A stretch of DNA of 64,000 bases, from the NCBI RefSeq assembly GCF_008831285.2, contig NC_045144.1:13319858-13383857 (forward strand). The letters are read 5' to 3'. Source of the stretch: Nymphaea colorata (taxonomy: Eukaryota > Streptophyta > Magnoliopsida > Nymphaeales > Nymphaeaceae). Below the pieces are notes generated by a model that saw only the letters and a list, made by a program, of their open reading frames with translations, did no database searches and was not told where the DNA came from. The translations under genes and the position numbers were made by a program. Shown here piece by piece: positions 29,051-58,693 of this stretch; position 1 is the first letter of the stretch; every line of letters begins with the position of its first letter.

Positions 29051-29076
29051 AGCCACACCAGGATTTGGGGGGAGAA

Positions 29077-29668: not shown

Positions 29669-30296
29669 GTTGCTCTAACTCCTATTGTGGAGGAGCTCGT
29701 GGGAACATGTGTAAGTGTGAGTGCATGAAGGAGCTTGTGGGTACGTGAGGTCCATCGGTTCCAAATCATGGGTAGTTAAAGAAGAATGGAGAAACTGGTG
29801 GGAGTGAAAAGTGGATACGTGAGGAGAACATGTGAATGTGTGTGCGGTTCCCAAGATCAAGGGTGATGGAGAAAATGGTGCGAGACTTGAGGGCTGAAAT
29901 GGAGGAGATCATGGGAGTGACTAGCGGTTACTAAGTTGAGGGCTGAAATGAAGGAGATCATGGAATGACCAGCGGTTATTAGCGTGAGGATCAAGTTTTT
30001 GTTTTTCTATATACAGTTGTTAGAGAAAGTTCAATGAAGTACGCCCAAAAGAAGAAAGAAATTTTTTTTCCTTAAACCTCTTCCCTCTACCCGTGAAGTC
30101 TCCTCTTGTTCTTTACTCTCTCTCCTGCCGTCTGCTTACTCTCTCTCTCCCCTATCGTGTACTCTCTACCCTATCACACTCTCCATCACTGTCCTTGGTG
30201 TGTTGCTTGGTGTGTTGCAGCCTACGGTCACCTCTCCTCATTTTGTCACTACCAAAAGGGAGGTGATTGAGTGTGAATCAAGGGAGTGCGCGAACA
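29669..30296 (+). repeat. Copia LTR2 (5' LTR of remnant B)
   Basis: Starts TGTTGCTCTAACTCC and ends GTGCGCGAACA, followed by the primer-binding site. Contains the pyrimidine-rich CTCTTTACTCTCTCTCC tract common to the three LTRs and two adjacent GAGGGCTGAAATG-AGGAGATCATGG-like units. About 628 bp. Confidence 0.92.
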
Positions 30297-30298
30297 TT

Positions 30299-30310
30299 TG
30301 GTATCAGAGC
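30299..30310 (+). other. Primer-binding site (initiator Met-tRNA type)
   Basis: TGGTATCAGAGC directly after LTR2 is complementary to the 3' end of plant initiator methionine tRNA and primes minus-strand DNA synthesis in most plant Copia elements. Confidence 0.9.
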
Positions 30311-30345
30311 CAGGTTGTTTGCCAAAGCTCCCTCGATTCAAGCCG

Positions 30346-33300: not shown

Positions 33301-33905
33301 GAAGTGTTTGTGCCAGTCACCAGGCTCGACACCGTACGAGTCATCCTTGTCGTCGCAGCCAATCGTGGGTTGCCAGTCCATCACCTTGACATCAAATCGG
33401 CATTCCTCAATGGCAAACTTGAGGAGGAGGTCTATGTAGTCCAGCCATAAGGTTTTACCGTGAAGAACAAGGAGCATATGGTGCTCAAACTAGGCAAGGC
33501 ATTGTACGGTCTTCGACAAGCACCTCGTGCATGGAATACGCGGCTGGATTGAAGCCTGAAGCACCTTGGGTTCCCAAAGTGCGCGCTGGAACAAGCCATG
33601 TATACGAGGGGAAGAGACCGCGCCGGCATCATCGTTGGAGTTTATGTTGATGATCTAATTGTAACAGGGGAGGATTCACAGGCGATTGCTGCATTCAAGC
33701 AGCAGATGATGGCTAAGTTGGAGATGAGCGACCTCGGCCTGCTCACCTATTACCTTGGGATTGAGGTGGCACAAGGCGAAGACGGTATCCGGATCAAGCA
33801 AACAACCTATGCCAAGAAGGTGTTAATGATATTTGGTATGCTTGATTGTAATCCCACAAAACTTCCCATGAAACCAAGGTCGCAATTGCACAAGGATCCC
33901 GAAGG
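30346..33905 (+). pseudogene. Copia remnant B: gag, protease, integrase and partial RT
   Basis: Gag starts at 30346 with MSIITNEVAREIASGAFQYP; a TAG at 30724 replaces Gln in GETLDQYAG. Next come an incomplete zinc-knuckle region, the protease box WYLDNGTCNHMTGD near 31440, the integrase core with LLHADLCCPITPP, the catalytic glutamate region SPQQNGVVERRNRTV, and LFGCTAHANV. RT begins with [15 protein letters not shown] and [17 protein letters not shown] and keeps GVYVDDLIVTGEDSQ at about 33635. Stops fall at 30937, 31660, 32218, 33076 and elsewhere. The copy breaks off after KDPEGRPV at about 33905, where it is fused to gag of remnant C, so it lacks RNase H and a 3' LTR. Confidence 0.9.
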
Positions 33906-36900
33906 ACGGCCGGTGTGGCTGTCAACACGAGGAAGGACAAGAAGGCGAGGTCGCATCTTCTCCAAGCTCTCCCGGAGGATCTCCTAATGCAGGTGGCAAA
34001 GAAGGCGACGGCGAAAGAGGTCTGGGATTGCCTCAAAACGAGATTCGTCGGGGCAGATCGCGTGATGAATGCGTGCTTGTAAACCTTGAAGAGTGACTTT
34101 GATGCCATGAGAATGCAGGAAGGAGAGACATTGGATCAGTATGCGGGCAAACTCACCGGCATGTCCGTCAAGTATGCCAACTTGGGGGGAACCCTGAGCG
34201 ACGCCGCCCTAGTGAAGAAGCTGTTTGACACTGTTCCAAATCGGTTTCTCAGCGTAATCGCAGGCATAGAGCAGTTTTGCGACCTCGACACTATGTTCTT
34301 TGAAGAGGTCGTGGGACGACTCAAGACCTACGAAGAATGCTCGCGTCCCCGAGCATTCGGTACTGGTGATGCTCAACTACTTCTCACTTAGGCCTAGTGG
34401 GAGGCACGACAGAAGAGAAGCGGCGGCGACCCATCATTGCCCCGAAAGGAAAGGACTCATGGGGAAGGAGCGATTCGCAGGTGGGGTGGACGCAGACGCG
34501 GCAGAGGGCACGGGAGAGGCGGACGCATCGACTTCCCACTCAATGACAGAGCAGGTGGCTCTGGGGCTTGTGGTCGTAACAAAAGCCACATCCGTTGCTT
34601 CAATTGCAACGAATTGGGGCATTACGCGAACCAATGCAAGGCTCCCAAAAGGAAGGAGGAGGTGCATCTCACACAAGCCGACGACACTGAACCACCAGAA
34701 TGGCAAGATCAGCAGGATACCGTCCTGCTGATTGAGGAGCAGGTATGGCTGGAACTGCACGGGACCGAGCAGGGCATGAAAACTATCGATGTCTGGTACC
34801 TGGATAACGGTACCAGCAACCACATGACCGGAGACAAGGTCAAGTTTCAGGAGTTGGATGAGGCAATCACCGGCAAGGTGAAGTTCGGCGACGGCTCATC
34901 AGTGCAGATTATGGGTAAGGGTTCAATTCTATTTAGATGCAAAAATGATGATCAATGGCTGCTCCACGAAGTATATTATATTCCAAGGCTTCGCAGCAAC
35001 ATCGTGAGTCTCGGGTAACTCACTGAGGCAGGCCACAAGGTGTTTATGGATGAGGACGAACTGAAGGTGTTCGTCAAAAATCCATGGCAGCTGATCATGG
35101 AAGTGAGACGCACGCCAAATCGTCTCTATCGCATCGAGCTGCAGATTGCAAGGCCAGTGTGTCTCCTGGCAAACCTCGAGGATCCGGCATGGTTGTGGCA
35201 TGCTCATCTCGGCCATGTCAACTTTCAAGCAATGAAGATGCTTGTAAACAAGAAGATGGCAACTGGGTTACCACCGATCACTCATCCTGCTCAGTTATGC
35301 CGGGAGTGTTTGGTGGCGAAGCAGACGAGACAGCCGTTCCCACCAGCAGCCAACTATCAAGCAAAGGAGCCAGTCGAACTCTTGCAAGCTGATCTTTGCG
35401 GCCCGATCACGCCACCTACCCCTGCCGGTAATAGCTATTTCTTACTAATCGCTGGTGACTTCACTCGTTGGATGTGGTTGTTCTTGATCAGAACAAAAGA
35501 CCAGACATGCTCGGCGTTTATGAGAATCAAGGCGCTGGCCGAGAACACATGCGGGCATCGCGTCAAGACGCTCCGAACCGATCGGGAAGGCGAGTTCCTC
35601 TCTCTCGAGTTCACCAATGTGTGTGAACAGGCGGGCATTGTGCGGCACCTCACTGCGCCATACTCACCACAGCAAAACGGTGTGGTGGAGCGGAGGAACA
35701 GGACAGTGATGTCGATGGCTAGGTCCCTGCTCAAGAGCATGAACATGCTGTGAAGATTTTGGGGGGAGGCAGTACGACACGCAGTCTACCTACTGAACCA
35801 CTTGCCTACAAAGGCCATGGGCGAGCGCACCCTGTATGAAGCTTGGAGTCGTAGGAAGCCTGATCTTGCACATCTTCGGTTATTTGGTTGCACATTGAAT
35901 GCCAGGGTGATGACGGCACACCTGAAGAAGCTCGATGATTACAGCCAGCCAATGGTGTATCTCAGCATCGAGGACGGCTGCAAGGCGGATCGACTTTTCG
36001 ATCCACATAGTGGGAGAATCAATGTAAGTCGTGATGTTAAATTTGAAGAAAAATTGAAGTGGAATTGGAACATGGATGCATGAGGCTGTGAATCGTCGAA
36101 TTTCACTATTGAGGATGAATCGAACACTGAGTCAACAGTGGACAACTCAGTTGCAAGCAGACAAGCAGGAAGGTCATTATCCATGGAGCCAGGCTACCTG
36201 ACTTCTTCATCGACACCGATGGGTGGCGAAGCAATGCCAATGGTGGCACCGACTAGGAGATTGTTGGTGGACGAAACTGCCGTGGCCTTGGAGATGGAAG
36301 ACAGTAATGACAGACCCATTGAATATAGGTATATTGATGATATCATGCGGTACGCTCGGCGTGTTGAGCTTGATGATGAAGACGTCGAAGAAGAGGTCAT
36401 GCTTGCGGCAACAGAGGAGTCGTCGTGTTACCAAGAGGCAATCGGCGAACCGGCAATGGAGGAAGCCATGGCCAAGGAGATTGAATCTATTGAGAAAAAT
36501 TTGACCTAGACGCTGACAACCCTACTGGCCGGAACTAAAGCAATCGGCCTCAAATGGGTGTTCAAATTGAAGAAAAACTCAGATGGAGAGCTGATCAAGC
36601 ACAAGGTCAGATTTGTCGTGAAAGGCTATGTCCAGCGGCAAGGGATTGAGTTCGAGGAGGTGTTTGCGCCAATCGCCAGGCTCGACACCGTACGAGTCAT
36701 CCTTGCCGTCGCAGCCAATGATGGGTGGCAAGTCCATCACCTTGACGTCAAATTAGCATTCCTCAATGGCGAACATGAGGAGGAGGTCTATGTAGCCCAC
36801 CCAGAAGGTTTTAAAGTGAAGAACAAGGAGCATATGGTGCTCAAACTAAGCAAGGCATTGTACGGTCTTCAAAAAGCACCTCGTGCTTGGAACACGCTGC

Positions 36901-37960
36901 TGGATCGAAGCCTGAAGCACCTAGGGTTCTCAACGTGCGTGCTGGAGTAAGCCATGTACCTGAGGGGAAAAGATCACATCGACATCATCATTGGAGTTTA
37001 TGTTGATGATCTAATTGTAACAGGGGATGATTCGGAGGCGATTACTGCATTCAAGCAACATATGATGGCTGAGTTCGAGATGAGCAACCTCGGCCTGCTC
37101 ACCAATTACCTTGGGATTGAGGTGGCTCAAGGCGAAGACGGTATCCAGATGACGCAGACAGCCTATGCCAAGAAGGTGTTAATGCAATTTGGTATGCTTG
37201 ATTGTAATCCCACAAAACTTCCCATGGAACCAAGGTCGCAGTTGCACAAGGATCCCGATGGACAGTCGGTGGATGCAACAGAGTATCGACGAGTTATAGG
37301 ATGTCTGAGGTATCTTCTCCACACAAGTCCAGATCTTTCGTATGCCGTCGGTGTAGCTAGTAGATTCATGGAGAAATCGACAATGATGCACCACAAAGCA
37401 GTGAAGCAGATTTTGCGATATTTAAAAGACACAATCAACTTCGGTCTTGTATACACAGAGCAAGGGGAGAAGAGGTGATTGTTGGGTTTACGGATAATGA
37501 CTTGGCGGGCGACGTCGATGACCGGAAAAGCACCGGAGGCATGGCATTCTATGTAAATGAAAGCCTAGTCTCATGGCACTCGCAGAAGTAGAAGACCGTT
37601 GCTCTGTCTTCGTCCGAAGCTGAGTTCGTGGCAGCAACTGCGGCAGCATGTCAGGCCCTCTGGCTCAGAGGACTACTGGCTGAGCTAGTTGGAAAAGAGC
37701 CGCAGGTGGTAAAGTTATATGTGGATAATAAGTCCACAATCGCATTAATGAAGAACCTAGTTTTTCATGGACGTAGCAAACACATTGACACAAAGTTCCA
37801 TTTCATACGTGAATGTGTTGAAAAAGGACAAATTATTGTGGATTTTGTGCGAACAGATGAGCAACAAGCTGATCTGTTGATGAAGGCGTTGCCGGTGACA
37901 AGGTTGGCAACAATGCGACACTTGCTAGGTGTTCGAAATCTCGAGCCACACCAGGATTAG
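33906..37960 (+). pseudogene. Copia remnant C: most complete gag-pol copy
   Basis: Lacks the first 50 or so gag codons. Landmarks: gag KLTGMSVKYANLGGTLSD and VPNRFLSVIAGIEQF; zinc knuckle RCFNCNELGHYANQC; protease WYLDNGTSNHMTGD in the 193-codon frame 34437-35018; pre-integrase LWHAHLGHVNFQAMKML; integrase DDE blocks LLQADLCGP, LRTDREGEF and SPQQNGVVERRNRT; RT VHHLDVKLAFLNGEHEEEVY and GVYVDDLIVTGDDSE; RNase H LYVDNKSTIALMKNL, HGRSKHIDTKFHFI and TDEQQADLL. Breaks include stops at 34079, 35018, 35751, 36080, 36507, 36948, 37476 and 37589. It runs correctly into the polypurine tract and LTR3. Confidence 0.92.
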
Positions 37961-37969
37961 GGGGGAGAA

Positions 37970-38586
37970 TGTTGCTCTAACTCCTGTTGTGGAGGAGCTC
38001 ATGGGAACATGTGTAAGTGTGAGTGCGAGAAGGAGCTCATGGGTACGTGAGGTCCATCAGTTCCAAATCATGGGTAGTTAAAGAAGAATGGAGAAATTGG
38101 TGGGAGTGAAAAGTGGAGACGTGAGGAGAACATGTGAATGTGTGTGCAGTTCCCAAGATCATGGGTGATGGAGAAAATGGTGCGAGACTTGAGGGTTGAG
38201 ATGGAGGGGATCATGGGAGTGACCAGTGGTTACTAAGTTGAGGGCTGAAATGAAGGAGATCATGGAATGACCAGCAGTTATTAGCGTGAGGATCAAGTTT
38301 TTGTTTTTCTATATATAGTTGTTAGAGAAAGTTCAATGAAGTACGCCCAAAAGAAGAAAGAATTTTTTTTTCCTTAAACATCTTCCCTCTACCCGTGAAG
38401 TCCCCTCTCGTTCTTTACTCTCTCTCCTGCCGTCTCCTTACTGTCTCTCTCCCCTGCCGTGTACTCTCTGCCCTATTGCACTCTGCATCCCTCTCCTTGG
38501 TGTGTTGCAGCCTACGGTCACCTCTCCTCATTTTGCCTTTACCAAAAGGGAGGTGATTGAGTGTGAATCAAGGGAGTGCACCAACA
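37970..38586 (+). repeat. Copia LTR3 (3' LTR of remnant C)
   Basis: Starts TGTTGCTCTAACTCC after the polypurine tract GGGGGGAGAA and ends GTGCACCAACA, after which LINE coding sequence resumes. About 617 bp, closely similar to LTR2 but with private substitutions. Confidence 0.92.
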
Positions 38587-40110
38587 CACTCTAACCATCT
38601 TCTGGCCTCACGTCTTTATGCTGCCTAAACGAGTGATTAGTCACTTGGAGAGACCCATTATGCAGTTCTTGTGGGGACGTGAGCAAGATGGGAAGAAAAG
38701 AAGGCACATGGTGGCATGGAAGACCCAGTGTAGGCCAATTGATGAGGGGGGAGTAGGGTTGAAACTGCTTGCGCTATGGAACCAAATGTTCTTATCAGCA
38801 CCAATAGTACACATTGTAAATCACAGGGCAAAGCTATGGTGCTGGTTCCAAAGAAGATATATGGCATGCAGTAAAAGCCTTTGGACGGTTCCTAAACCTT
38901 GGAAGGGATTACGGGGCTGGATCAGCTTGGGGTTTAGCTGGCAACTCATTGAAGATAAAGTTCGTGGTTTGCCAGCTCAGGTACGAACATCAAGTTCTAG
39001 GTTGATATTTGGTGTGGCAGTATCTTAATGCATAGGCTTTGAGGGGAGAAATATGCTGTAATATGGAGGAACCTTATAGGGGGAGGGGTGGCTCAGGGCT
39101 GGGAATTGATTCTCCTTCAGAACCCACCTTATCTATTGGCACAGTAGGACTGAAATGGAGGACTGGTGGAGGAAGTAATTCAAAAGCGAGAGACATATGG
39201 GAGGGGTGTCGAGTGATGGATTCTAGGGAGAGATGGAGGAAAAAGATTTGGAAATTGGCTCTTGCCTGATCGAGCTGGTTTGTCTACCTTGCTTTGTGCA
39301 AATATACGAAACTCCCAAGATAAATGGAAGTGAATAGGTATAAGCATGGCCGACAGCTGTGTTTTGTGCAAAATGGCGGATGAAAGTGTCAGCCACATAT
39401 TCTTGAAGTGTAGAATTACAATGGGGGTATGAGAGTTTTTGGTGAAAAGTTTGGTAGATCTAGAATTCCTTGGTTGGGATTGATTGAACAGTTTAAATAG
39501 TGGCACAAAACCCAATTCCATGATAAATGGTTGACGAGACGCTGGAGGGTGGTTTTTCACATAGTAAGTTGGAGGGTATGGGCTGTTAGAAACTAGCTTC
39601 TATGTGACATGTGGGACGATGGAACAAGGAATAGAGTAATTAATTTTATATGAAAATAATGCGGGGCTGTTTTTTGGAGAATGAAATGGAATGAGGAAGA
39701 GAAGTTGCTTGTGGGGGTGTGGACGGCCTCTAACATGACTTGTGAAGTGGAGAAAAAATTGATGATGAGACCAGCTCACACATGGAGTCAATTGGAGTTG
39801 GAAAGCTGAATAGGAAGGTGGTTGTTGTGGCCACTTGGTAAAAAATGGTGAGGCGCTCTCTTCAGAAATTATCTTTGCAACAGATTCATGACCAAGCAGA
39901 ATTCCATATCTTGGAACGTGCCCTCACAAAGATGGATGTGATAGAGGGAGAGTTGATAGTGAAGTCCAATAATGCTTCATGGAAAAGAAGATTAAGGGCA
40001 CTTCTAGAGGGAGGAAGGAAGTGGCATGCCAGATGGAAAGAAATAAAACAATGCCAATGGAAAGGATGTATCAAGGAAGAGATTGCTCTCATTTCCAAAT
40101 GGTGGTTATT
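38587..40110 (+). pseudogene. LINE, 3' part: RT thumb and zf-RVT region
   Basis: Continues the LINE cut at 27405. The 150-codon frame 38576-39028 reads TIFWPHVFMLPKRVISHLER, MQFLWGREQDGKKRRHMVAW, DEGGVGLKLLALWNQMFL and MACSKSLWTVPKPWKGLRGW, the usual block after plant LINE RT. At about 39350-39410 CVLCKMADESVSHIFLKCR gives the CCHC zf-RVT motif. Later frames (39845-40294) are Lys/Arg-rich and not assignable. I found no poly(A) tail or target duplication. The right edge merges into the duplicated block at 40126. Confidence 0.82.
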
Positions 40111-40930
40111 CTTTGTCTACTCAGGATCACCATGTGCCATTCTTGTTAGATTCAAGTATGTTGACGGCATTTCTTCATCTAAGAGGTTACATATCCAGGG
40201 GCCCTCACATCTTTTGCAAGCCTGCACCGAGGCCTTCACCCATGCTGGATTCTCATTGTCTCTTCTTAGTATTGCCTCACATATCACATTGTAATACTAA
40301 GTTAACCCATCAGGCTCTAAATTATATCACTCGCTTCAGCCCTTAAGCATCAACTTCTTCCCTTTCAATCTTCCTCGTCCTAAAGATCCGACTCCAAGAT
40401 CTTGTATTCATGCTTGTCACATATTGCAACCATTTGCTTGGTTGTTTGCATGCTTCAGGATTACTTATTTTCTGTATTTTTTTGTTTTCTTATTATTATG
40501 TCATATTTCCACGATTATAATTCAGGATCTAGGCACAGTCTTGCATGCCACCACCTACAGCAGCTTTCAATATGTATCTAGTCTCCCATGAATTTTTATA
40601 TTCCAAACCTTTAGTACTTCTTTTGTTGGAAAAAGATAACCCTATTTTCGTAAGGTTCCGTTTTATGCTTTTTCCGTAGAACCAGAATTTAGCAGATATT
40701 ATCCAAGCTATAAAATCCAAATCTGGGGGCACATCTTCCAATAGCGGTGGTTGGAATAGAAAGCTATACGTGTGTAAAGTAAATCCTCAATTTTGAGCTG
40801 GACTCAAGGTCATTTGGTACGGTTCCAAGTTGAAACTCTAAAACCTATTTTCTGCAACTTTACAGATTTTGAGAACATGTTAAAATATAGATTTCCCCAG
40901 AATTTCCTAGATTTTTTTCCTTCACTCTAA

Positions 40931-41260
40931 CGCTATGTTTGGATGAAGAAAAAAAGAGGGGAAAGAATGGATGGAATGGAAAAGAAAAGAAAGGGAAGGA
41001 AAGGGAATGGGGAGGGAAATAAGAAGAAAAGAAAGGGAATGAACATTCATTCCTTTCCATTCCAATATCTTCATTTTTAGAGGGATTGAAATTACATTAA
41101 AAATCATTTTTTCCCCTTTCATTTCCTGTCATTTCATTTGCATCCAAACATAATTATTAGTTCTCACTTTTTTTTCCTTCCATATTAATTAGTAATCCTA
41201 ACACAAGAAAGACTTTATTTCTATTTCTTTCTCTCCCTCTCCCTCCATCCAAACAGGCTG
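40931..41260. mobile_element. 330-bp Tourist/Harbinger-like MITE
   Basis: Flanked by TAA at 40928-40930 and 41261-41263. Ends are CGCTATGTTTGGATGAAG and, on the opposite strand, CAGCCTGTTTGGATGGAGG, sharing TGTTTGGATG. Inside is a purine-rich arm (AAAGAAAAGAAAGGGAAGG) opposed by CATTCCTTTCC and CTTTCATTTCC pyrimidine stretches, so it could fold back. Non-coding. Confidence 0.65.
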
Positions 41261-41263
41261 TAA

Positions 41264-42480
41264 GACTTCAATCCTAAATCGATCATTTGGAACCTTAGTT
41301 AGGATATGTCTAGGCATACCAACTTTAATGCCATTTGCAGCCAATTAGCTTATACGATCAAGCCCAAACGGAAAGCCTATGCTATAGAAAAGTAGTTAAC
41401 TAATTTCCTGCATACTTCATTTATTCGATATAGCTTTTCATATTTGCATTAGGAATAGCATGTGTAACATGTTTAACATTCATAGTCCTGTTGCCGGTGA
41501 TGACAAATCTATCTCGGTGAAAAATGTCATTGGTACCACAGGTTAAGAACCTCTCCCGCTATAGATATTCTTTTAGGGCGCGAAATAGTTTGGTTTTTCA
41601 GTACAAAGAGTCATTCTCCAGTGCGAGCAGGAGGCATTTTACCTTTTCTATCGAGGGTTAACGCTTGTACATTTCTGCTCGTCGCCGTCGCAGCGATCAC
41701 CGTCTCGTGACTTCTTCCGGCACCTCGATCATTGGTAGTGGCAGTATTGTCATATAAAATATTGTAACTATTGGAAAATATTAAAATAGTTTGTATTGAG
41801 GTGGCCTAGCCGTGTCAGTCTATCCAGTTCATATGAAGAGCAATGTATCTAAAAATTGCATCCTTACGACACAGCTACCCTTTGAATTAATGACCTATCT
41901 GCCAACCGATGCCCATTTTACTTTGGTAATTAAAACCCCACTGCATTAAGTTTCTGAACCATTAATGAGTTAGAATCGTGAAGCCATTGTTTACATTATA
42001 CTGCTCTATGAATGGATTTTGTCATCCCTATACATATTAATGTTTTCTCAATGGTGCATTACCATTAGGTTGGTAGTTGAACTGAACTAACGGCGGCTCT
42101 ATATGTTCAAGTTTCGGTCATTTTTAGGAGCAAGGCAATGAAATGTTGGAAGATATATTGGTCCCTTCTAAATCAGTCTTAGACATCATCACTAAACACA
42201 TGTACGGTTATTATATAGAGAAAAATTTCTTGAGTAAAATACGACAAAGTTATATATCTCGGGAATATCTCTGGAAAATCACGGCAAATTTTTTAAAAAT
42301 TTAAAACATTTAATAAATCCGGAACATTATAAAAATAAATAAAAATAATAAAAAATATGAAAAAATGAGTATAATACATGTTTTTTTCACGTTTTTTATT
42401 TTTGGCATTTTTTCATGTTTTATACCGCTGAATGTGTTTTGGCGCATTATACCCTCCTTTTTCAAATAAGACGCATTTTC
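41264..42480. other. No recognisable gene
   Basis: Anonymous sequence. A GC-richer patch at 41640-41740 (CGTCGCCGTCGCAGCGATCA) stands out but is in no convincing frame in this copy. Poly-A/T runs lie at 42290-42420. Confidence 0.4.
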
Positions 42481-42514
42481 TGTGACAATGGGACTCTTAG
42501 ATAACCAAAGACAC

Positions 42515-43920
42515 TAATTATATTAAATGCAATCTACATCCACAAAATATGGATTCCATTAATTGTACTCAGTTGAAACAATAATAAAAGTGATATTACT
42601 TCCCTCGTTGTCATTGAGAGAGGAGAAAAAGGATTGCACTATGGATGCTGGTTGTAGATCAGCTGCACAACATTAAATTTCTTCCCTGTTTTCATGCATC
42701 AGAACCTAGCTCTGATACTATTCTTTTTCTTCTTGTCCTGTGTTATTTATTATACATGATATTTGGATCGTACTATCCTAGGACTTATGGGTTATTGGCC
42801 TACCATTCTTCCATTGCACAATTATGATTATATTACGAGCAATTCTAGCCATGTTCTGCAGGAAATTACTGACATATTGAAAACATTTGCCCATTAAAGA
42901 TTTAGGATCTATACATTGTTGTCTTAGCATCTAAGTGCAACTACATATTGGGGATCTCTTCTGAGTCAAAAGAAATACATCTCTAGTACTTCAGTTAAAG
43001 CTAATATGTCAAAATGCAAGTCAGTGGTGATGCCAACCATTTGGCCTTTTGCTCATCTGCCAAAACATGATGGTACTATTTTCCCTGTTTAGAACCTTTT
43101 ACTGCAATCTTGTTGGAGCTCTATAGTATGCCATTCTGACCCGACTAGATATAGGCTTTGCGGTCAATATTTATGAACCGACCGATGTTTACTAGATGCA
43201 TCTCAAACGCATCCTTCCATACCTTCAGGGCACTATTACACTTGGGCTGGGTGCCCAGATAGGTTTCGGTAACATACTGTGGCAACTAATGCCCGATTTA
43301 AAGCCATGGCAGGACCTGGGGGGGGGGATGTCTATGCTTAAAGAGCTTCATGTGTAGTTCTGTGACCCTCAATCTTAAGATGTGACAACCTACGGGCTAC
43401 TTATCTGGCAGTCAATCCAATTTTTCATGCACGCACAAAACATATCAAGATAAACTTTCATTTTGTTCGTGAGAAAGTGGGTCTGAAGGAAATGAAAATG
43501 GAGTTTGTTTCTTCCAAAGAGCGGCTCACTGATATTCTCACCAAAGCCCTGCTGGGACCTCGGTTTCATTGCTTGAAGAATGACCTCAAGCTAGTTAATA
43601 TCCAGGCTTAGCTAGAGGGGGCATGATAATGACCTGGATGTGATTGGTTTGAAGAAGAATAAAGATAATGAGAATATACCAGAGAAAATATCAGTCCATG
43701 CTAAATCATTTTTAGATTACAAAAGGAAATAAGGTGTTGACAATGTTAAATGCAAGTTAGATCCACAAAACATGGACCTTATTAACTGTTTCCAGTTGAA
43801 ACGATAATAAAAGTGATACTCTCCTCTCGTTATCAGTGAAAGAGGAGGGAAGCTTGCACCGTAGATGTAGGACGCACATCAGCTGAACCACGTTAAATTT
43901 GTTCCCTATGTTCTTGCGCT
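42515..43920 (+). repeat. Diverged LTR pair of a small Copia remnant
   Basis: Blocks 42515-42690 and 43737-43920 align in direct orientation (AATGCAA-CTAGATCCACAAA-like start, CAGTTGAAACAATAATAAAAGTGATA, GCTGCACAACATTAAATTT and variants). They bracket the Copia fragment 42895-43611. The right one follows the polypurine tract TAGAGGGGGCATGATAATG at 43611-43630. A reversed primer-site-like GCTCTGATACTA lies at 42711-42722. Divergence between the LTRs indicates an old insertion. The same pair occurs in the second block copy at about 49270-49450 and 50496-50680. Confidence 0.55.
42895..43611 (+). pseudogene. Copia remnant: end of RT plus RNase H
   Basis: Broken frames give SVKANMSKCKSVVMPT, HLPKHDGTIFPV, then from 43196 HLKRILPYLQGTITLGL. 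A continuous frame 43381-43611 reads CDNLRATYLAVNPIFHARTK, HIKINFHFVREKVGLKEMK, FVSSKERLTDILTKALLG and RFHCLKNDLKLVNIQA-stop, the complete C-terminal part of Copia RNase H. It ends directly at the polypurine tract. Gag, protease and integrase are absent. Confidence 0.85.
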
Positions 43921-43930
43921 TCCCCTTCTT

Positions 43931-44535
43931 GTGTGTTTGTTTATAGAAGGCACTTGTTAGATGATGTAGCTGACCAGCTGGGAAGAGACGAAGGTAAAAA
44001 ATCTCATTTTTGTATAGTCGGGACATCTTGATGCTAAGAGAGAGAGAGAGAGAATCTTTTCCGAACACCACATATAACGAGAATGCAGCGAAAGTCAGGG
44101 GCAGTTCGGGACCACAACACTCTTCATATTTTGGAAAAGAAAAAAAAGATACTTATATTTTTCAAATTTTTAATTTGACACATGTAAAGGTAACAAAAAT
44201 ATTTCGGCCCCTATAATAAAATTTAAAAGTGCTATCGGCCTCCCTTTCTCGAAAAAAGAATTTCTGACTCTAACTAGAAAAACCCATGGATGATATAAAA
44301 CAAAAGTGGGAGTCAGGTCAATGGATAGAAAATGGAGATCGACATCACAACATTAGACACATCTTTACGTACGGACACAGACATTTAACAACTGAAGCAG
44401 CATAAAAAGGAAAAACAAGAACAAAAAATGAAGCGACGGACAAGTCTTGTCACATAAACTGCATTATTTCTTGCATATATACCATATGACCCACAAAGTC
44501 AAGAACAGCCGTACCCTCCATACCAAGGGGCATCT
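43931..44535. other. No recognisable gene
   Basis: AT-rich anonymous DNA with an AGAGAGAGAGAGAGAG run at 44037-44054. The minus frame 43757-44071 lies across the LTR and this run and has no family resemblance. Confidence 0.4.
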
Positions 44536-44538
44536 TTA

Positions 44539-46672
44539 GGGGGGCGTTGATGCCCTGGAAATATACTGTTCACCTAGAAATATATTTCAAATTTTTAAAA
44601 AAAATTCAGCATAACAAACGCGGAAACTTTTTTTCAACCGTTAAGGTCGATTCTGGAAACATATTTCCGAAAACATCTTTCCACCCAGCGGGGTGAAAAG
44701 ATATTTCCTGGTTTTTTTTTTCTGCCTGTTAAGGCAGCGTCGTCGTCTTCCTCGCCTCATGCCCAGCACTGTCGTCGTCTTCCTGTCCTCATGCCAGCGT
44801 CGTCTTCCTCCAGCGGCTTGATTTGGGCATCTCCACACCAGCGCTTGATTGGGCATCTCCTCACCAGAGCAGCGTCTAGCAGCGGAAGGGGAAAGAGGAA
44901 GAAGGAGGAAGAACGAAGGGAAAGAGGAAGAAGAGGAAGAACGTAGGGGAAAGAGGAAGAACGAAGGGGAAAGAGGAAGAAAGAAGGGGAAGAGGAAGAA
45001 GGGAACGAAGGGGAAAGAGGAAGAAGGGAAGAAAGGGGAAAGAAGATATCACCAATCTCTCTCTCGCTTACACCGAGAGATTTGGGTATCCTCCTGCTAT
45101 CCGCCATCGCCATCTTCTATGCCATCCAAGTCTATTTCCCTCTTTCTCTCCTCCCTCTTGTTGTGTTCGCTGATCAATTTTTCTGTAATAGGGCTTTCTG
45201 GTTTTCCTTTCCCTTATCTTCTGGTTTTCTTTCCTTTCTTTCCCTCCTTCGTCTTGTGTGGGGTTCTCCCATTCTGTATCGGAAACAAGATTCTCGCTTC
45301 CCCACTCGTCTGTCAGCCTTCTTAGTTGCTTGCCGTCGTCAGTGTAGTTGTGCAAAGGGTTACAAATGAAAATGCATACGGAAACCATTCGACCTCGTTG
45401 GTTCTGAGGGACTATGTTCAATTTGGCATTTATTTATCTAAGAAAACAATTTTTGGTTCCGGGTGATGTTGTTCCCTTGTTTGAGATGAGCATGAGGAAA
45501 TCTGTGTGTTCCCTTGATTTTGCAAGCTTTTTTTGGATGATTTAGCATATCTCATTTCTTCCTTGATTCTGCATATCTAACTTCTCTGTGCATGTTGCAT
45601 TGCATCATTATCATTTGTCAATGTTCTATTTAAGTTTGCTTCATTTCTTCTATGTAATAATACCCCTTCTAGTCGTTACTCTGGAATTATTGATTTTTCT
45701 GTTCATATTCTGCACATGTATTGTACACTGTTCTTTCTATTCATCTCTTATTCTGACGTGTTACAAGATCACACAAGCAGACATGCTTCTGCAGCTACTT
45801 CATCAACTTGGAAAGCCAATCTGTGTTATTGGTAAGTGCAAAAAATCCTCTGACACTTGGGAGACAAAGTGCAAGGTGTGTTTGAGGGATTAATGACTTC
45901 TTTTGCATATGTAGAGAAGCAGCAACTATATAACATTGAGAGTCATGTTTTTTTTTTCTTATTTACATAACAAGACAGTAACATTGTGTTCATTGTGTTA
46001 CAGTTATCAATCAGTCCCTTGCCAGTTTCGTTGAGTAATTCTCTTTTGTGTAAAATAACATTATATTGCCCAATCTTTGATGTAAGTGTGTTTTCCCACA
46101 TTGGAATGATGGCCAAAGAAAGGGCTGCAGACAAGTTCACTATGGCTAGTATTTTTAGCTAGCTAAAATAAAGAGGATAGTGAAAGCTTAGGCAGATTCA
46201 TGTATCCATCTGTAGATAAACTGACTCACATGCATTCTTATTACAAATTAGAGTGTATTTTTGGTTCTAAGTTTGCTTTCCACTTTTGCTATTGTTTCAC
46301 TTGTAAAAAAAAATAGTAGCAGTCAAACAAGCAAAATAAACAATTTTATCTGCTCGTTTTGGTTAGAAGCAGTACACAAAAAATATTCCTGTCCTTTCAA
46401 TTCTTTTTGCTTTGTGTCTCTTGCTGGTAAAGATGTGAACCGTGCATTTTACTTGATCAATTGCCTACTTGATCAAAAGAAATTTGGAAATATATTTCTT
46501 TATCATCAAACACAGAAATATATTTCTGGAAATATATTTCTCAGTCATCACACAACATCAAAATGGGAATCAGAAAGATTTTTCTCATTCCTTTTTTCCA
46601 TAAAATAATTTCCAATATATTCCATTACAGATTTCCAGCCATCAAAAGAAGACTAGCAAACAAATGGTCCCC
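44539..46672. mobile_element. Putative non-autonomous Harbinger-like element (copy in left contig)
   Basis: Flanked by TTA at 44536-44538 and 46673-46675. The left end reads GGGGGGCGTTGATGCCCTGG; the right end on the opposite strand reads GGGGACCATTTGTTTGC, with an internal TTTTGATGGCTGGAAAT that mirrors the left end. AAATATATTTC words cluster near both ends. The inside holds a purine-rich GAAGGGGAAAGAGGAAGAA array (44880-45040) followed by TC-rich sequence. It has the look of a transcribed leader but contains no transposase frame. Frames in the array are low-complexity. Classification is tentative. Confidence 0.45.
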
Positions 46673-46812
46673 TTATAAGGTCCCTAAAAATTGAGGTACT
46701 TCCGATAACTATTCCTTAGCGAATTCTATGCGGATTGGTATATTTGTTGCATGACCAATGGTTTATTCATGAACAGGCTAACAAATTGGAGATCCCACCT
46801 CTTCAAAAATCA

Positions 46813-46912
46813 NNNNNNNNNNNNNNNNNNNNNNNNNNNNNNNNNNNNNNNNNNNNNNNNNNNNNNNNNNNNNNNNNNNNNNNNNNNNNNNNNNNNNNNN
46901 NNNNNNNNNNNN
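46813..46912. other. Assembly gap of exactly 100 N
   Basis: One hundred N characters, the usual placeholder for a scaffold join of unknown size. Translations crossing it are meaningless. Confidence 0.99.
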
Positions 46913-47705
46913 ATCACCATGTGCCATTCTTGTTAGATTCAAGTATGTTGACGGCATTTCTTCATCTAAGAGGTTCATATCCAGGGCCCTCACATCTTTT
47001 GCAAGCCTGCGCTGAGCCTTCACCCATGCTGGATCTCATTGTCTCTTCTTAGTATTGCCTCATATCGCATTGTAATACTAAGTTAACCCATCAGGCTCTA
47101 ATTATATCACTCGCTTCAGCCCTTAAGCATCAACTTCTTCCCTTTCAATCTTCCTCGTCCTAAAGATCTGACTCCAAGATCTTGTATTCATGCTTGTCAC
47201 ATATTGCAACCATTTGCTTGGTTGTTTGCATGCTTCAGGATTACTTATTTTCTGTATTTTTGTTTTCTTATTATTATGTCATATTTCCACGATTATAATT
47301 CAGGATCTAGGCACAGTCTTGCATGCCACCACCTACAGCAGCTTTCAATATGTATCTAGTCTCCCATAAATTTTTATATTCCAAACCTTTAGTACTCTTT
47401 TGTTGGAAAAAGATAACCCTATTTTCGTAAGGTTCCATTTTATGCTTTTTCCGTAGAACCAGAATTTAGCAGATATTATCCAAGCTACAAAATCCAAATC
47501 TGGGGCACATCTTCAATAGTGGTGGTTGGAATAGAAAGCTATACGTGTGTAAAGTAAATCCTCAATTTGGAGCCGGACTCAAGGTCATTTGGTATGATTC
47601 CAAGTCGAAACTCTAAAACCTATTTTCTGCAACTTTACAGATTTTGAGAACATGTTAAAATATAGATTTCCCGAGAATTTCCTAGATTTTTTTCCTTCAC
47701 TCTAA

Positions 47706-48019
47706 CGCTATGTTTGGATGAAGAAAAAAAGAGGGAAAGAATGGATGGAAAGGAAAAGAAAAGAAGGGAATGGGGAGGGAAATAAGAAGAAAAGAAAGGG
47801 AATGAACATTCATTCCTTTCCCTTCCAATATCTTCATTTTAGAGGGATTAAATTACATTAAAAATCATTTTTTCCCCTTTCATTTCCTGTCATTTCATTT
47901 GCATCCAAACATAATTATTAGTTCTCACTTTTTTTTCCTTCATATTAATTAGTAATCCTAACACAAGAAAGACTTTATTTCTATTTCTTTCTCTCCCTCC
48001 CCTCCATCCAAACAGGCTG
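47706..48019. mobile_element. Tourist/Harbinger-like MITE, second block copy
   Basis: Counterpart of 40931-41260, flanked by TAA at 47703-47705 and 48020-48022. It is 16 bases shorter because of deletions in the purine-rich arm, close to the contig start where sequence quality seems lower. Confidence 0.65.
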
Positions 48020-48022
48020 TAA

Positions 48023-49260
48023 GACTTCAATCCTAAATCGATCATTTGGAACCTTAGTTAGGATATGTCTAGGCATACCAACTTTAATGCCATTTGCAGC
48101 CAATTAGCTTATACGATCAAGCCCAAACGGAAAGCCTATGCTATAGAAAAGTAGTTAACTAATTTCCTGCATACTTCATTTATTCGATATAGCTTTTCAT
48201 ATTTGCATTAGGAATAGCATGTGTAACATGTTTAACATTCATAGTCCTGTTGCCGGTGATGACAAATCTATCTCGGTGAAAAATGTCATTGGTACCACAG
48301 GTTAAGAACCTCTCCCGCTATAGATATTCTTTTAGGGCGCGAAATAGTTTGGTTTTTCAGTACAAAGAGTCATTCTCCCAGTGCGAGCAGGAGGCATTTT
48401 ACCTTTTCTATCGAGGGTTAACGCTTGTACATTTCTGCTCGTCGCCGTCGCAGCGATCACCGTCTCGTGACTTCTTCCGGCACCTCGATCATTGGTAGTG
48501 GCAGTATTGTCATATAAAATATTGTAACTATTGGAAAATATTAAAATAGTTTGTATTGAGGTGGCCTAGCCGTGTCAGTCTATCCAGTTCATATGAAGAG
48601 CAATGTATCTAAAAATTGCATCCTTACGACACAGCTACCCTTTGAATTAATGACCTATCTGCCAACCGATGCCATTTTACTTTGGTAATTAAAACCCCAC
48701 TGCATTAAGTTTCTGAACCATTAATGAGTTAGAATCGTGAAGCCATTGTTTACTTATACTGCTCTATGAATGGATTTTGTCATCCCTATACATATTAATG
48801 TTTTCTCAATGGTGCATTACCATTAGGTTGGTAGTTGAACTGAACTAACGGCGGCTCTATATGTTCAAGTTTCGGTCATTTTTAGGAGCAAGGCAATGAA
48901 ATGTTGGAAGATATATTGGTCCCTTCTAAATCAGTCTTAGACATCATCACTAAACACATGTACGGTTATTATATAGAGAAAAATTTCTTGAGTAAAATAC
49001 GACAAAGTTATATATCTCGGGAATATCTCTGGAAAATCACGGCAAATTTTTTAAAAATTTAAAACATTTAATAAATCCGGAACATTATAAAAATAAATAA
49101 AAAATAATAAAAAATATGAAAAAATGAGTATAATACATGTTTTTTTCACGTTTTTTATTTTTGGCATTTTTTCATGTTTTATACCGCTGAATGTGTTTTG
49201 GCGCATTATACCCTCCTTTTTCAAATAAGACGCATTTTCTGTGACAATGGGACTCTTAGA
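48023..49260. other. No recognisable gene (second copy of 41264-42480)
   Basis: Counterpart of 41264-42480. One added C at about 48380 opens a 71-codon plus frame (48283-48498) that is broken in the other copy, showing how the small indels create or destroy frames. I do not regard it as a gene. Confidence 0.4.
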
Positions 49261-49653
49261 TAACCAAAGACACTAATTATATTAAATGCAATCTACATCC
49301 ACAAAATATGGATTCCATTAATTGTACTCAGTTGAAACAATAATAAAAGTGATATTACTTCCCTCGTTGTCATTGAGAGAGGAGAAAAAGGATTGCACTA
49401 TGGATGCTGGTTGTAGATCAGCTGCACAACATTAAATTTCTTCCCTGTTTTCATGCATCAGAACCTAGCTCTGATACTATTCTTTTTCTTCTTGTCCTGT
49501 GTTATTTATTATACATGATATTTGGATCGTACTATCCTAGGACTTATGGGTTATTGGCCTACCATTCTTCCATTGCACAATTATGATTATATTACGAGCA
49601 ATTCTAGCCATGTTCTGCAGGAAATTACTGACATATTGAAAACATTTGCCCAT

Positions 49654-50372
49654 TAAAGATTTAGGATCTATACATTGTTGTCTTAGCATCTAAGTGCAAC
49701 TACATATTGGGGATCTCTTCTGAGTCAAAAGAAATACATCTCTAGTACTTCAGTTAAAGCTAATATGTCAAAATGCAAGTCAGTGGTGATGCCAACCATT
49801 TGGCCTTTTGCTCATCTGCCAAAACATGATGGTACTATTTTCCCTGTTTAGAACCTTTTACTGCAATCTTGTTGGAGCTCTATAGTATGCCATTCTGACC
49901 CGACTAGATATAGGCTTTGCGGTCAATATTTATGAACCGACCGATGTTTACTAGATGCATCTCAAACGCATCCTTCCATACCTTCAGGGCACTATTACAC
50001 TTGGGCTGGGTGCCCAGATAGGTTTCGGTAACATACTGTGGCAACTAATGCCCGATTTAAAGCCATGGCAGGACCTGGGGGGGGGGGAATGTCTATGCTT
50101 AAAGAGCTTCATGTGTAGTTCTGTGACCCTCAATCTTAAGATGTGACAACCTACGGGCTACTTATCTGGCAGTCAATCCAATTTTTCATGCACGCACAAA
50201 ACATATCAAGATAAACTTTCATTTTGTTCGTGAGAAAGTGGGTCTGAAGGAAATGAAAATGGAGTTTGTTTCTTCCAAAGAGCGGCTCACTGATATTCTC
50301 ACCAAAGCCCTGCTGGGACCTCGGTTTCATTGCTTGAAGAATGACCTCAAGCTAGTTAATATCCAGGCTTAG
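49654..50372 (+). pseudogene. Copia RT/RNase H remnant, second block copy
   Basis: Counterpart of 42895-43611 with the same breaks. The frame 49955-50146 holds HLKRILPYLQGTITLGLGAQ; the RNase H tail with HARTKHIKINFHFVREKV ends at about 50372 before TAGAGGGGGCATG. A G-run is one or two bases longer than in copy 1, which is typical of sequencing or assembly noise. Confidence 0.85.
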
Positions 50373-51301
50373 CTAGAGGGGGCATGATAATGACCTGGAT
50401 GTGATTGGTTTGAAGAAGAATAAAGATAATGAGAATATACCAGAGAAAATATCAGTCCATGCTAAATCATTTTTAGATTACAAAAGGAAATAAGGTGTTG
50501 ACAATGTTAAATGCAAGTTAGATCCACAAAACATGGACCTTATTAACTGTTTCCAGTTGAAACGATAATAAAAGTGATACTCTCCTCTCGTTATCAGTGA
50601 AAGAGGAGGGAAGCTTGCACCGTAGATGTAGGACGCACATCAGCTGAACCACGTTAAATTTGTTCCCTATGTTCTTGCGCTTCCCCTTCTTGTGTGTTTG
50701 TTTATAGAAGGCACTTGTTAGATGATGTAGCTGACCAGCTGGGAAGAGACGAAGGTAAAAAATCTCATTTTTGTATAGTCGGGACATCTTGATGCTAAGA
50801 GAGAGAGAGAGAGAGAATCTTTTCCGAACACCACATATAACGAGAATGCAGCGAAAGTCAGGGGCAGTTCGGGACCACAACACTCTTCATATTTTGGAAA
50901 AGAAAAAAAAGATACTTATATTTTTCAAATTTTTAATTTGACACATGTAAAGGTAACAAAAATATTTCGGCCCCTATAATAAAATTTAAAAGTGCTATCG
51001 GCCTCCCTTTCTCGAAAAAAGAATTTCTGACTCTAACTAGAAAAACCCATGGATGATATAAAACAAAAGTGGGAGTCAGGTCAATGGATAGAAAATGGAG
51101 ATCGACATCACAACATTAGACACATCTTTACGTACGGACACAGACATTTAACAACTGAAGCAGCATAAAAAGGAAAAACAAGAACAAAAAATGAAGCGAC
51201 GGACAAGTCTTGTCACATAAACTGCATTATTTCTTGCATATATACCATATGACCCACAAAGTCAAGAACAGCCGTACCCTCCATACCAAGGGGCATCTTT
51301 A

Positions 51302-53465
51302 GGGGGGCGTTTGATGCCCTGGAAATATACTGTTCACCTAGAAATATATTTCAAATTTTTAAAAAAAAATTCAGCATAACAAACGCGGAAACTTTTTTTC
51401 AACCGTTAAGGTCGATTCTGGAAACATATTTCCGAAAACATCTTTCCACCCAGCGGGGTGAAAAGATATTTCCTGGTTTTTTTTTCTGCCTGTTAAGGCA
51501 GCGTCGTCGTCTTCCTCGCCTCATGCCAGCACTGTCGTCGTCTTCCTGTCCTCATGCCCAGCGTCGTCTTCCTCCAGCGGCTTGATTTGGGCATCTCCAC
51601 ACCAGCAGCTTGATTGGGCATCTCCTCACCAGAGCAGCGTCTAGCAGCGGAAGGGGAAAGAGGAAGAAGGAGGAAGAACGAAGGGGAAAGAGGAAGAAGG
51701 AGGAAGAACGTAGGGGAAAGAGGAAGAACGAAGGGGAAAGAGGAAGAAAGAAGGGGAAAGAGGAAGAAGGGAACGAAGGGGAAAGAGGAAGAAGGGAAGA
51801 AAGGGGAAAGAAGATATCACCAATCTCTCTCTCGCTTACAACCGAGAGATTTGGGTATCCTCCTGCTATCCGCCATCGCCATCTTCTATGCCATCCAAGT
51901 CTATTTCCCTCTTTCTCTTCCTCCCCTCTTGTTGTTGTTCGCTGATCAATTTTTCTGTAATAGGGCTTTCTGGTTTTCCTTTCCCTTATCTTCTGGTTTT
52001 CTTTCCTTTCTTTCCCTCCTTCGTCTTGTGTGGGGTTCTCCCATTCTGTATCGAAAACAAAGATTCTCGCTTCCCCACTCGTCTGTCAGCCTTCTTAGTT
52101 GCTTGCCGTCGTCAGTGTAGTTGCTGCAAAGGGTTACAAAATGAAAATGCATACGGCAAACCATTCCGACCTCGTTGGTTCTGAGGGACTATGTTCAATT
52201 TGGCATTTATTTATCTAAGAAAACAATTTTTGGTTCCGGGTGATGTTGTTCCCTTGTTTGAGATGAGCATGAGGAAATCTGTGTGTTCCCTTGATTTTGC
52301 AAGCTTTTTTTGGATGATTTAGCATATCTCATTTCTTCCCTTGATTCTGCATATCTAACTTCTCTGTGCATGTTGCATTGCATCATTATCATTTGTCAAT
52401 GTTCCTATTTAAGTTTGCTTCATTTCTTCTATGTAATAATACCCCTTCTAGTCGTTACTCTGGAATTATTGATTTTTCTGTTCATATTCTGCACATGTAT
52501 TGTACACTGTTCTTTCTATTCATCTCTTATTCTGACGTGTTACAAGATCACACAAGCAGACATGCTTCTGCAGCTACTTCATCAACTTGGAAAGCCAATC
52601 TGTGTTATTGGTAAAGTGCAAAAAATCCTCTGACACTTGGGAGACAAAAGTGCAAGGTGTGTTTGAGGGGATTAATGACTTCTTTTGCATATGTAGAGAA
52701 GCAGCAACTATATAACATTGAGAGTCATGTTTTTTTTTTCTTATTTACATTAACAAGACAGTAACATTGTGTTCATTGTGTTACAGTTATCAATCAGTCC
52801 CTTGCCAGTTTCGTTGAGTAATTCTCTTTTGTGTAAAATAACATTATATTGCCCAATCTTTGATGTAAGTGTGTTTTCCCACATTGGAATGATGGCCAAA
52901 GAAAGGGCTGCAGACAAGTTCACTATGGCTAGTTATTTTAGCTAGCTAAATAAAGAGGATAGTGAAAAGCTTAGGCAGATTCATGTATCCATCTTGTAGA
53001 TAAACTGACTCACATGCATTCTTATTACAAAATTAGAGTGTATTTTTGGTTCTAAGTTTGCTTTCCACTTTTGCTATTGTTTCACTTGTAAAAAAAAATA
53101 GTAGCAGTCAAACAAGCAAAATAAACAATTTTATCTGCTCGTCTTGGTTAGAAGCAGTACACAAAAAATATTCCTGTCCTTTCAATTCTTTTTGCTTTGT
53201 GTCTCTTGCTGGTAAAGATGTGAACCGTGCATTTTACTTGATCAATTGCCTACTTGATCAAAAGAAATTTGGAAATATATTTCTTTATCATCAAACACAG
53301 AAATATATTTCTGGAAATATATTTCTCAGTCATCACACATACATCAAAATGGGAATCAGAAAGATTTTTCTCATTCCTTTTTACCATAAAATATATTTCC
53401 AAAAATATATTTCCAATTACAGATTTCCAGGCCATCAAAAGAAGACTAGCAAACAAATGGTCCCC
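51302..53465. mobile_element. Putative non-autonomous Harbinger-like element (copy in right contig)
   Basis: Counterpart of 44539-46672 and probably the more accurate version, lying well inside its contig. Ends are GGGGGGCGTTTGATGCCCTG and, on the opposite strand, GGGGACCATTTGTTTGC with subterminal TTTTGATGGCCTGGAAAT; TTA flanks both sides (51299-51301, 53466-53468). The purine array at 51640-51815 and the downstream pyrimidine-rich block are followed by AT-rich sequence with intron-like character. No transposase recognisable. Confidence 0.45.
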
Positions 53466-53606
53466 TTATAAGGTCCCTAAAAATTGAGGTACTTCTGATA
53501 ACTATTCCTTAGCGAATTCTATGCGGATTGGTATATTTGTTGCATGACCAATGGTTTATTCATGAACAGGCTAACAAATTGGAGATCCCACCGCTTCAAA
53601 ACATCA

Positions 53607-54214
53607 GGTGTCTGCACCTTACCATGCATCATCCCTCCAAACAATCTTTTCAAAAGCAATTCATGTACAGAGGAAGTAAAGAAATGATAGACTTTGGCAA
53701 CTGATTAGAAGGCCAAATAAACCAAGAACAGTTGTGTAGGTGTGGTTTGTTATCATGGAAGAGAGAGACAGAGAGACAGAGAGAGATAGCGCTGGAGAGA
53801 TAAAGATTTAAAGAATATACTTTTTTTCGGAATATATAAGTTGGTAATGCGACTATTACTGTGGCATAATATTTTGGAATTAATTTGACTACCGGTGGAA
53901 ATCATCTTCCTAACTTTTTCTCATTCTACGGCAAGAACCTTCTCAATAATGAAGGAGAAATACAATTATAAATAATGAAGAAATCCTTACCACCGAAAAT
54001 CATGTCCACCATTTTCCTTCTTGTTTCTTTCTTCTCTCCCTTTCATCTTAAAATAAGGGAAATATTCTAGTTATCATCATTACCGTCGTACACACGTCAT
54101 AGTCATGTACGTAAGATAGAAGTTCAGCACAGGCAAAGAGGGAACGATGATTTCCAGTTGTCATTCAGTCAATGCAAATCGTACACCAAGGGTAAAGTCA
54201 TTCCTTTAGTACAA
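53607..54214. other. No gene; GAGAGACAGAGAGA microsatellite and R1 fragment
   Basis: Unique sequence right of the duplicated block. A GAGAGAGACAGAGAGACAGA run lies at about 53760-53790. Near 54165-54195 AATGCAAATCGTACACCA matches the R1 repeat family at 710 and 20860. No credible frame. Confidence 0.5.
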
Positions 54215-54217
54215 TAA

Positions 54218-55714
54218 GGCCCCATTTGATTGCAGAATTTAATGTCGTAAATTTTCCATGGAAAAGAATTCTGGAAAAAAATACAGGATGAAATTTTACC
54301 CTCTTCCAATTTGAGGCTCTGTTTGATTGTAGGGAAGTTTTTTGCAAGGTAAAATTAACTGTGTTTGATGCATAGGGCAGTTTTTTTGCAGGGTAAAATT
54401 AATTGAAAGCTGAAGTCACATATACCTAATGTTAACAACTTCTATTCCAGCTTTCTTTTCTCGAACATGGAAACAACAAGCATAAGTAACAATCTCCAAA
54501 TTTCAACATTTCAACAATATTTCTTTGTGTAATCTCCCAATGAAGTCTACCAACCAATTTAACTAATGCGGAACACTGCAAAATATGGGCCATATGGTCC
54601 TGCAACAATACTTTCTGCAGCAGAGACTCTTTTCACTTTAAACATCTCAACCACCAAGCAAATGATTGGTGTACATTTTCAGCTTTGATTCACCAAACAA
54701 GCAGTTACAGATTATAAACACTCAAGGACTGATGGAAGCACCCAACAATCAAGAAAACTGAAGGTAATCAGATGCTTCTTGAAAACAAATTAGTCATTAT
54801 TGCAGGTTTTCATGGATTAAAAAAACTTGCACATGCTATCAGTTTGAAGACGACATTCAGGTTTGTTGTGTCTAGACCGAGATACAGGTAGTGAAAGGCA
54901 AATTGAAAGGCATGTGACTAGTCGCATGATCGTCTATCGCATAATCAGCCAGAAGAAAATGGAAAAAGAAGAACAGTAATTGATTCATGAGAAATCAACT
55001 ATGGAACAATGGATTAACAGATGAAATGACAGAGAAATGAAGAAGAAAATAAAAATGGCCAGTTGGCAAAACAATCTTGCACAACCAAAATGGTAAAATA
55101 ATCAGGATCTTTTTCCTCTTTCTTCTGACTTCCTCTATTCAAACAACCACCAACCAAATAAACAAGCCAACAGGAAAGCTACAACCATGAACACCTTTTC
55201 CTTCTATGGCCGGCAGATTGGGGAAAGAGGTAGTAATGGGGACTCACCTGGAGACATGTAGCTTCTTTCAGCCACCCCTGAATAGAGAGAGAAGAGAAAG
55301 GGATTAGGGCATCCTATAGCAGAAACAGAGGGAGAGGGGGGAGAAGCAAGGCCACCTTATCCAGATTCCACATAGTGAGGAAGAGGGCTTTGACGAAGGG
55401 CGGAAGAGGCAAATCGACAGAAGGGAAGAGGGCTTCGACAGAGAGGCAAATCGCCGGCTTCAACACAGGGAGGAAGATGGCTTCGCAGAGAGGAAGGGGC
55501 GAGAAAGAGAGCGAGAGAGCCTAACGGCTCTCAAAATAATCTGCGGTAAAAAGTTTGACCTCTTGAGGTCGGACTTTTTTCCGCGTTAAATTTACCTCAA
55601 TTGTACACTTTTATCGGATGAAAATTTCCAGCGTTTTATGCACCATGGGATTTCCGTACACAAAAGTGAAATTTCACCCGCTCAACAGTATTTTCCCTTG
55701 CAATCAAATGGGCC
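54218..55714. mobile_element. Non-autonomous PIF/Harbinger-type element, 1.5 kb
   Basis: Left end GGCCCCATTTGATTGCAG; right end on the opposite strand GGCCCATTTGATTGCAAGG; they match with one indel. The flanks are TAA at 54215-54217 and 55715-55717, the Harbinger target duplication. The inside has a second TGTTTGATTGTAGGGAAG-like motif near the left end, AT-rich non-coding sequence, and a GAAGAGGGCTTTGACGAAGG-type purine-rich repeat at 55380-55520. No transposase or Myb-like frame is present, so it would need help from elsewhere. Confidence 0.85.
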
Positions 55715-57951: not shown

Positions 57952-58693
57952 GCCTGACTTTTCTGAGGTTGATGATACCTTTCTGGAGGAAGGATACTGC
58001 AGCATTAGATGGTCCATGCATGCATCTTCTTAATTAACCTGATCCTAGTAATTGAGATCATGTAGTGTGGCATTGCCATTATAAAAATTAGTCAATCGCC
58101 GCATGTTTGGCCTTGATTCAGGTGCAGTCCGTGAACGGAGCATGCCAAGCTTCAACACAAGCTCTTCTTCCTCCACAACATAGTTATTCCTTAGCCTTTT
58201 GTTCATGGCGTACAGCATTCATCCACCCTTCCACAACGAGCAGACCAACTTCACCAGATTAACCTCCTCACAAGGCCTCTCAGGATCAATGGGCCTCCTT
58301 TCACAGGCCACCTTCAGGAGCAAGACACCATAAGAGTAGACATCGGAGCTTGTTGTTGACTTGCTGGTGCAGGCAAGCTCTGGCACCATGTACTCTAAAC
58401 TCATACGCGGGTTGTTTTGGGGTTGGTTCCATGGTTATAGAGCCTGGCAAGCCCAAAATCCCCCAACCTACCATTTAGATCACCATCCAACAACATATTA
58501 CTGGCTTTAACATCTTTGCGCACAACCACTTTCTCCCACTCTTCGTGCAGGTACAACAGGCCAGAAGCAATTCCTTTAAGAATATTGAACCTCTATCCCA
58601 ACTGAGGCTTCTTATCCATGCATCAACAAGATAACTGTCCAGGCTCCCGTTTGGCATGAACTCACAAAACAGGAGTATTAGGAGTAGGAATCA
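57952..58693 (-). pseudogene. L-type lectin receptor kinase pseudogene 2, kinase half
   Basis: On the minus strand the sequence enters the kinase at LLFCEFMPNGSLDSYLVDA, homologous to [17 protein letters not shown] of LecRK pseudogene 1. It continues through the catalytic-loop region (read as broken [20 protein letters not shown]), [36 protein letters not shown] and LVKLVCSLWKGG, and ends near 57952. The HRD arginine position reads as Cys or Arg-Lys-like in the available frames, and frameshifts interrupt at about 58415 and 58590. The N-lobe with the glycine loop and catalytic lysine is missing, because the Copia LTR abuts at 58694. The upstream lectin half is at 62955-63690. Confidence 0.9.

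Follow-up and report, generated by a model that had tools for sequence, protein, structure and literature searches.

One type of homotype false duplication, 'overlapping sequences at contig boundaries', is described as sequence of a single locus standing in tandem with a gap between the copies; in that account, which concerns vertebrates and bases diagnosis on reads and k-mers, the duplicated piece is often the size of a corrected read and consensus quality differs (PMC8081667, Nature 2021). Gaps between the copies are also described as a primary trait of false duplications (PMC9516828, Genome Biol. 2022). Here we analyse a locus of this appearance in a 64,000-nucleotide stretch of Nymphaea colorata DNA (hereafter the window; C7:13319858-13383857) from an assembly of 407.8 Mb in 783 contigs. 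Sequence comparison indicates that a 6.7-kb repeat around a 100-N gap is very probably an unmerged overlap between two contigs, and so an error of assembly instead of a genuine duplication. The case belongs to a known kind of artefact and is of low biological interest. If this reading is right, about 6.8 kb of the chromosome is false sequence, and the locus shows a check that needs no reads: whether paralogues are single-copy, and whether private deletions and paralogue bases lie at the gap-facing ends of the copies.

Results

The window contains one run of N only, exactly 100 bases long (C7:13366670-13366769), and the sequences on its two sides are copies of each other (Table 1). A single BLASTN alignment of 40126-46812 with 46913-53606 covers 6727 columns at 98.573% identity, with 23 mismatches and 62 gap openings, and touches both gap edges, bearing out the claim of an earlier note on this DNA that the copies abut the gap on each side. 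When gaps are made cheap in a global alignment, 94 events are counted, of which 43 are substitutions and the rest gaps (30 in copy 1, 21 in copy 2). The middle (41101-44500) shows one substitution in 3396 aligned columns and eight gap events, so that the earlier description of this part as nearly identical was right, whereas 'identical' for the whole blocks was too strong at 98.6%. The same note had argued that a real tandem repeat would meet the gap edges by coincidence alone, which is wrong as stated: a unit longer than 6.7 kb suffices. With the end of the first unit and the start of the second hidden in the gap, the shared part is necessarily bounded by the gap edges. A longer tandem unit thus gives the same geometry, and geometry alone cannot tell contigs left unmerged where they overlap from a real duplication interrupted by a gap. 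Support for false duplication comes from evidence beyond that geometric argument.

Table 1 Features of the repeat and its flanks (window coordinates)
Feature	Position	Strand	Remarks
Left flank	39076..40125	+	joined to one block in both full paralogues
Copy 1	40126..46812	+	right end of left contig, 6,687 bases; overlaps right contig (alignment)
Tail of copy 1	44546..46812	+	holds 22/23 of its private deletions; paralogue base at 4 clean sites after 46300
Scaffold gap	46813..46912	.	100 N; sole N run of window
Copy 2	46913..53606	+	left end of right contig, 6,694 bases; 98.6% to copy 1 (alignment)
Head of copy 2	46913..47822	+	close to 24.27-Mb paralogue; run of mostly single-base deletions
Right flank	53607..55329	+	joined to one block in both full paralogues

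Elsewhere on C7, the left flank (39000-40100) has matches of 94-95% at 24.277, 22.701 and 24.057 Mb. The block is matched over its full length at two places, 24.050-24.057 Mb (96%) and 24.271-24.277 Mb (95%), and the right flank matches directly beside both of these (96-97%). The paralogous stretches L001 (24.05 Mb, 'p1') and L002 (24.27 Mb, 'p2') contain no N. Because the flank and block matches are contiguous and free of N, both full paralogues consist of the left flank, one block and the right flank. The lengths agree with a single block in the window as well: 39076-55300 less 6,794 bases measures 9,431 bases from flank to flank, and the paralogues measure 9,416 and 9,493. The single-copy state of two paralogues does not in itself prove a single copy at the window locus. 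Comparison of one paralogue with the other gives 71 substitutions with 11 gap events for the left stretch and 77 with 11 for the right stretch, and the right contig downstream of the block lies about 3% from each of them.

When a piece of 1 kb from the block was searched against the genome (best 40 of 293 candidates), the window copies appeared at 100% and the 24.05- and 24.27-Mb paralogues at 98%. Among the matches listed, these were the four places covering most of the piece, the remainder being fragments, and no match above contig C15 appeared among the 41 rows. Counts from this search and from that with the whole block are lower bounds; the whole-block listing is incomplete, as the window's own two places are absent there and present with the 1-kb piece. 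A leftover haplotig elsewhere was considered and rejected, with none among the matches listed for the whole block (best 39 of 1945) or for the 1-kb piece (best 40 of 293).

To polarise the differences, both copies were aligned with both paralogues. Private deletions are concentrated towards the gap from either side: 22 of 23 in copy 1 fall inside 44540-46812, its gap-facing third (binomial p 7.6e-10), and 14 of 19 in copy 2 inside 46913-48000, its gap-facing sixth (binomial p 4.6e-8), the other five lying away from the gap end. The earlier note had named both intervals beforehand, so these tests are reasonably fair, although single errors may not be independent. Private insertions number two in copy 1 and seven in copy 2, and none lies in the gap-facing part of either copy. 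The proposed pile-up of indels beside the gap in each contig is therefore seen for deletions but not for private insertions (0 of 9); the consensus is poorer at the contig ends as judged by private deletions, a trend that the nine insertions do not follow. Most single-base private deletions adjoin an identical base (16 of 20 in copy 1 and 14 of 17 in copy 2, against 51% of copy-1 bases). Deletions next to identical bases are a usual pattern of long-read error. Taken along their length, the two copies differ mainly in their gap-facing parts and in an indel-rich manner; in the left stretch of the paralogue pair, 71 substitutions stand against 11 gap events. Spread divergence with a natural substitution-to-indel ratio, as expected of a true tandem duplication, is not what is observed, although contig-end noise could mask such a spread.

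Sites are called clean where none of the four sequences has a gap and where no gap difference between copy 1 and copy 2 occurs within five columns; the site counts below are of such columns only. Over 41101-44000, all 52 of 52 window-specific clean bases are common to both copies, and neither has a private base. The picture differs in 40126-41100, where 12 of 13 clean sites show the common paralogue base in copy 2. At two further sites each copy agrees with a different paralogue, and at both of them copy 2 agrees with the 24.27-Mb one. From the 24.27-Mb paralogue the head of copy 2 is separated by two substitutions in 911 columns and the corresponding part of copy 1 by 21 in 925, while the two copies differ from each other by 17 in 911. 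Substitutions between the copies lie mostly in this head, and there copy 2 mostly has the paralogue base. Because copy 2 resembles the 24.27-Mb paralogue over its first ~0.95 kb, reads may have been misassigned there, and the head is probably a low-quality or chimeric contig end. Its 17 substitutions are not explained by plain contig-end error; they need paralogue reads or a second haplotype.

At the opposite contig end, 44001-46300 contains 45 shared sites, five at which copy 1 alone differs, one at which both copies differ and two that are split. In the last part (46301-46812), four clean sites of copy 1 carry the paralogue base, none is shared with copy 2, and at three near an indel copy 1 stands alone, perhaps through an alignment slip there. 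In the comparison of the copy-1 tail with the 24.05-Mb paralogue, copy 1 shows seven substitutions and copy 2 six, so that copy 1 is no closer. The paralogue signal is strong in the head of copy 2 and weak in the tail of copy 1.

The family contains a second gap. Another run of 100 N, at C7:22702408, cuts a fourth member (L003); self-comparison of L003, with 4.3 kb compared on the far side, gave no long copy across the gap among the 12 matches listed. Comparison of L003 (1-1608) together with L005 against L002 and L004 relates C7:22.69-22.70 to C7:24.277-24.287 Mb, inverted and 1.58 Mb apart. The last 7.3 kb of the 22.70-Mb contig before its gap has no substitution relative to the inverted 24.28-Mb copy, and the next 2 kb has 39. 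The inner part of this substitution-free stretch, at a distance of 6.08-7.34 kb from the gap, differs by 13 deletions of one base each, on the 24.28-Mb side, and there is one further indel column 1.4 kb from the gap. This contig end may be a second contig-end artefact or the product of a recent exchange. In L004, near C7 position 24286671, the 24.27-Mb member abruptly stops matching the others at a point with no N gap, while the match carries on in the window and in the remaining two members (rows >700 bits); the break is either a real boundary or a hidden misjoin.

Outside the repeat, Ty1/copia-type retrotransposon pieces, nested or tandem and 88-94% alike, occupy 27602-38586 of the window and contain integrase, reverse transcriptase and related domains. 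Protein-kinase and legume-lectin domains are found in neighbouring ORFs at 2155-4045 on the minus strand; they probably belong to a single lectin receptor kinase that the stop-to-stop reading divides among frames. The piece 2204-2877 is 79% alike to 58010-58675.

Discussion

The earlier reading of the locus as a false duplication is supported by four lines of evidence: single-block, N-free paralogues; the matching collapsed length; deletion pile-ups at opposite, gap-facing parts of the copies; and paralogue-type bases near the gap-facing ends. For the behaviour of the reads, the action of the scaffolder and the true copy number, we infer the following. Two contigs of one locus would have their ends inside a family of segmental duplications, with an overlap of about 6.7 kb; the assembler probably broke there because of close paralogues on the same chromosome, at 22.70 (gap-cut), 24.05 and 24.27 Mb. 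The contig ends would have been extended by noisy reads, some of them from a paralogue, and the scaffolder would then have ordered the contigs and inserted 100 N instead of merging them, so that one stretch was written twice. On the simplest reading, few and noisy reads went into finishing both contig ends, and paralogue reads entered the head of the right contig.

A second haplotype would offer another source for the divergent head. The two contigs would then represent the parental haplotypes of a single locus and overlap at the gap; this too would be an artefact, but of other cause, and we regard it as unlikely. The 17 substitutions in 911 columns between the copies in the head would fit, as would the paralogue-shared base at 12 of 13 clean head sites, expected of an allele retaining the ancestral base. 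However, the substitutions cease abruptly, with one in 3396 columns over 41101-44500, and the divergent head sits at the gap-facing end, where it is only two substitutions from the 24.27-Mb paralogue.

It is also quite unlikely that the repeat is a real and very recent tandem duplication with a unit of more than 6.7 kb, the gap concealing where one unit finishes and the following one begins. Such an arrangement has the same gap-edge geometry, its contig ends could be noisy too, and the locus lies within a family that has duplicated. Against this, both full paralogues have one block, and the middle differs by a single substitution in 3396 columns, even though private changes are concentrated in the parts next to the gap. 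The unit-to-unit junction, which would fall in the gap, is not seen in the window. A more elaborate version, with recent tandem duplication (unit >6.7 kb) at the 13.36-Mb member and the 24.27-Mb paralogue as donor of a ~0.95-kb tract to the second copy through interlocus gene conversion, is very unlikely.

Misjoining of a right contig from another family member is highly improbable despite the resemblance of the copy-2 head to the 24.27-Mb copy. An example of such a member is the 22.70-Mb copy, whose contig stops at its own gap, at a point that corresponds to window 40080 and lies 46 bases short of the homologous start of copy 2. We reject a misjoin for most of the right contig: beyond its first ~0.95 kb it is of window type, having 52 of 52 clean window-specific bases of 41101-44000 in common with copy 1, and downstream it is about 3% from both full paralogues.

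An unmerged contig overlap remains the preferred reading. The earlier concern that every element would be counted twice is minor as far as tested: in a Pfam scan of eight of the 42 listed ORFs, the three inside the block and the one across its left edge gave no match at E 0.001. The stretch at the 22.70-Mb gap is maybe a similar artefact, and the assembly's copy counts for the family need checking.

Among described systems, the repeat resembles the false segmental duplications attributed to mis-assembly in that an apparent recent duplication would have been made by assembly, but that report, in its description of the cause, blames polymorphic haplotypes, a point of difference from the present case (PMC2864568, Genome Biol. 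2010). The heterotype form, as described, likewise places two copies on a scaffold, often separated by a gap (PMC8081667, PMC9516828); it leads one to expect haplotype differences along the copies, whereas here the middle 3.4 kb has one substitution in 3396 columns. Sameness of locus would fit the 52 of 52 clean sites shared over 41101-44000, but the 0.9-kb head of copy 2 stands apart with its 17 substitutions in 911 columns. From the homotype form as set out in PMC8081667 the repeat differs in that a contig end also seems to carry paralogue bases, and in that it was classed here from paralogues and not from reads or k-mers. It shares with that form two copies on one scaffold, with 100 N between them, abutting both edges of the gap.
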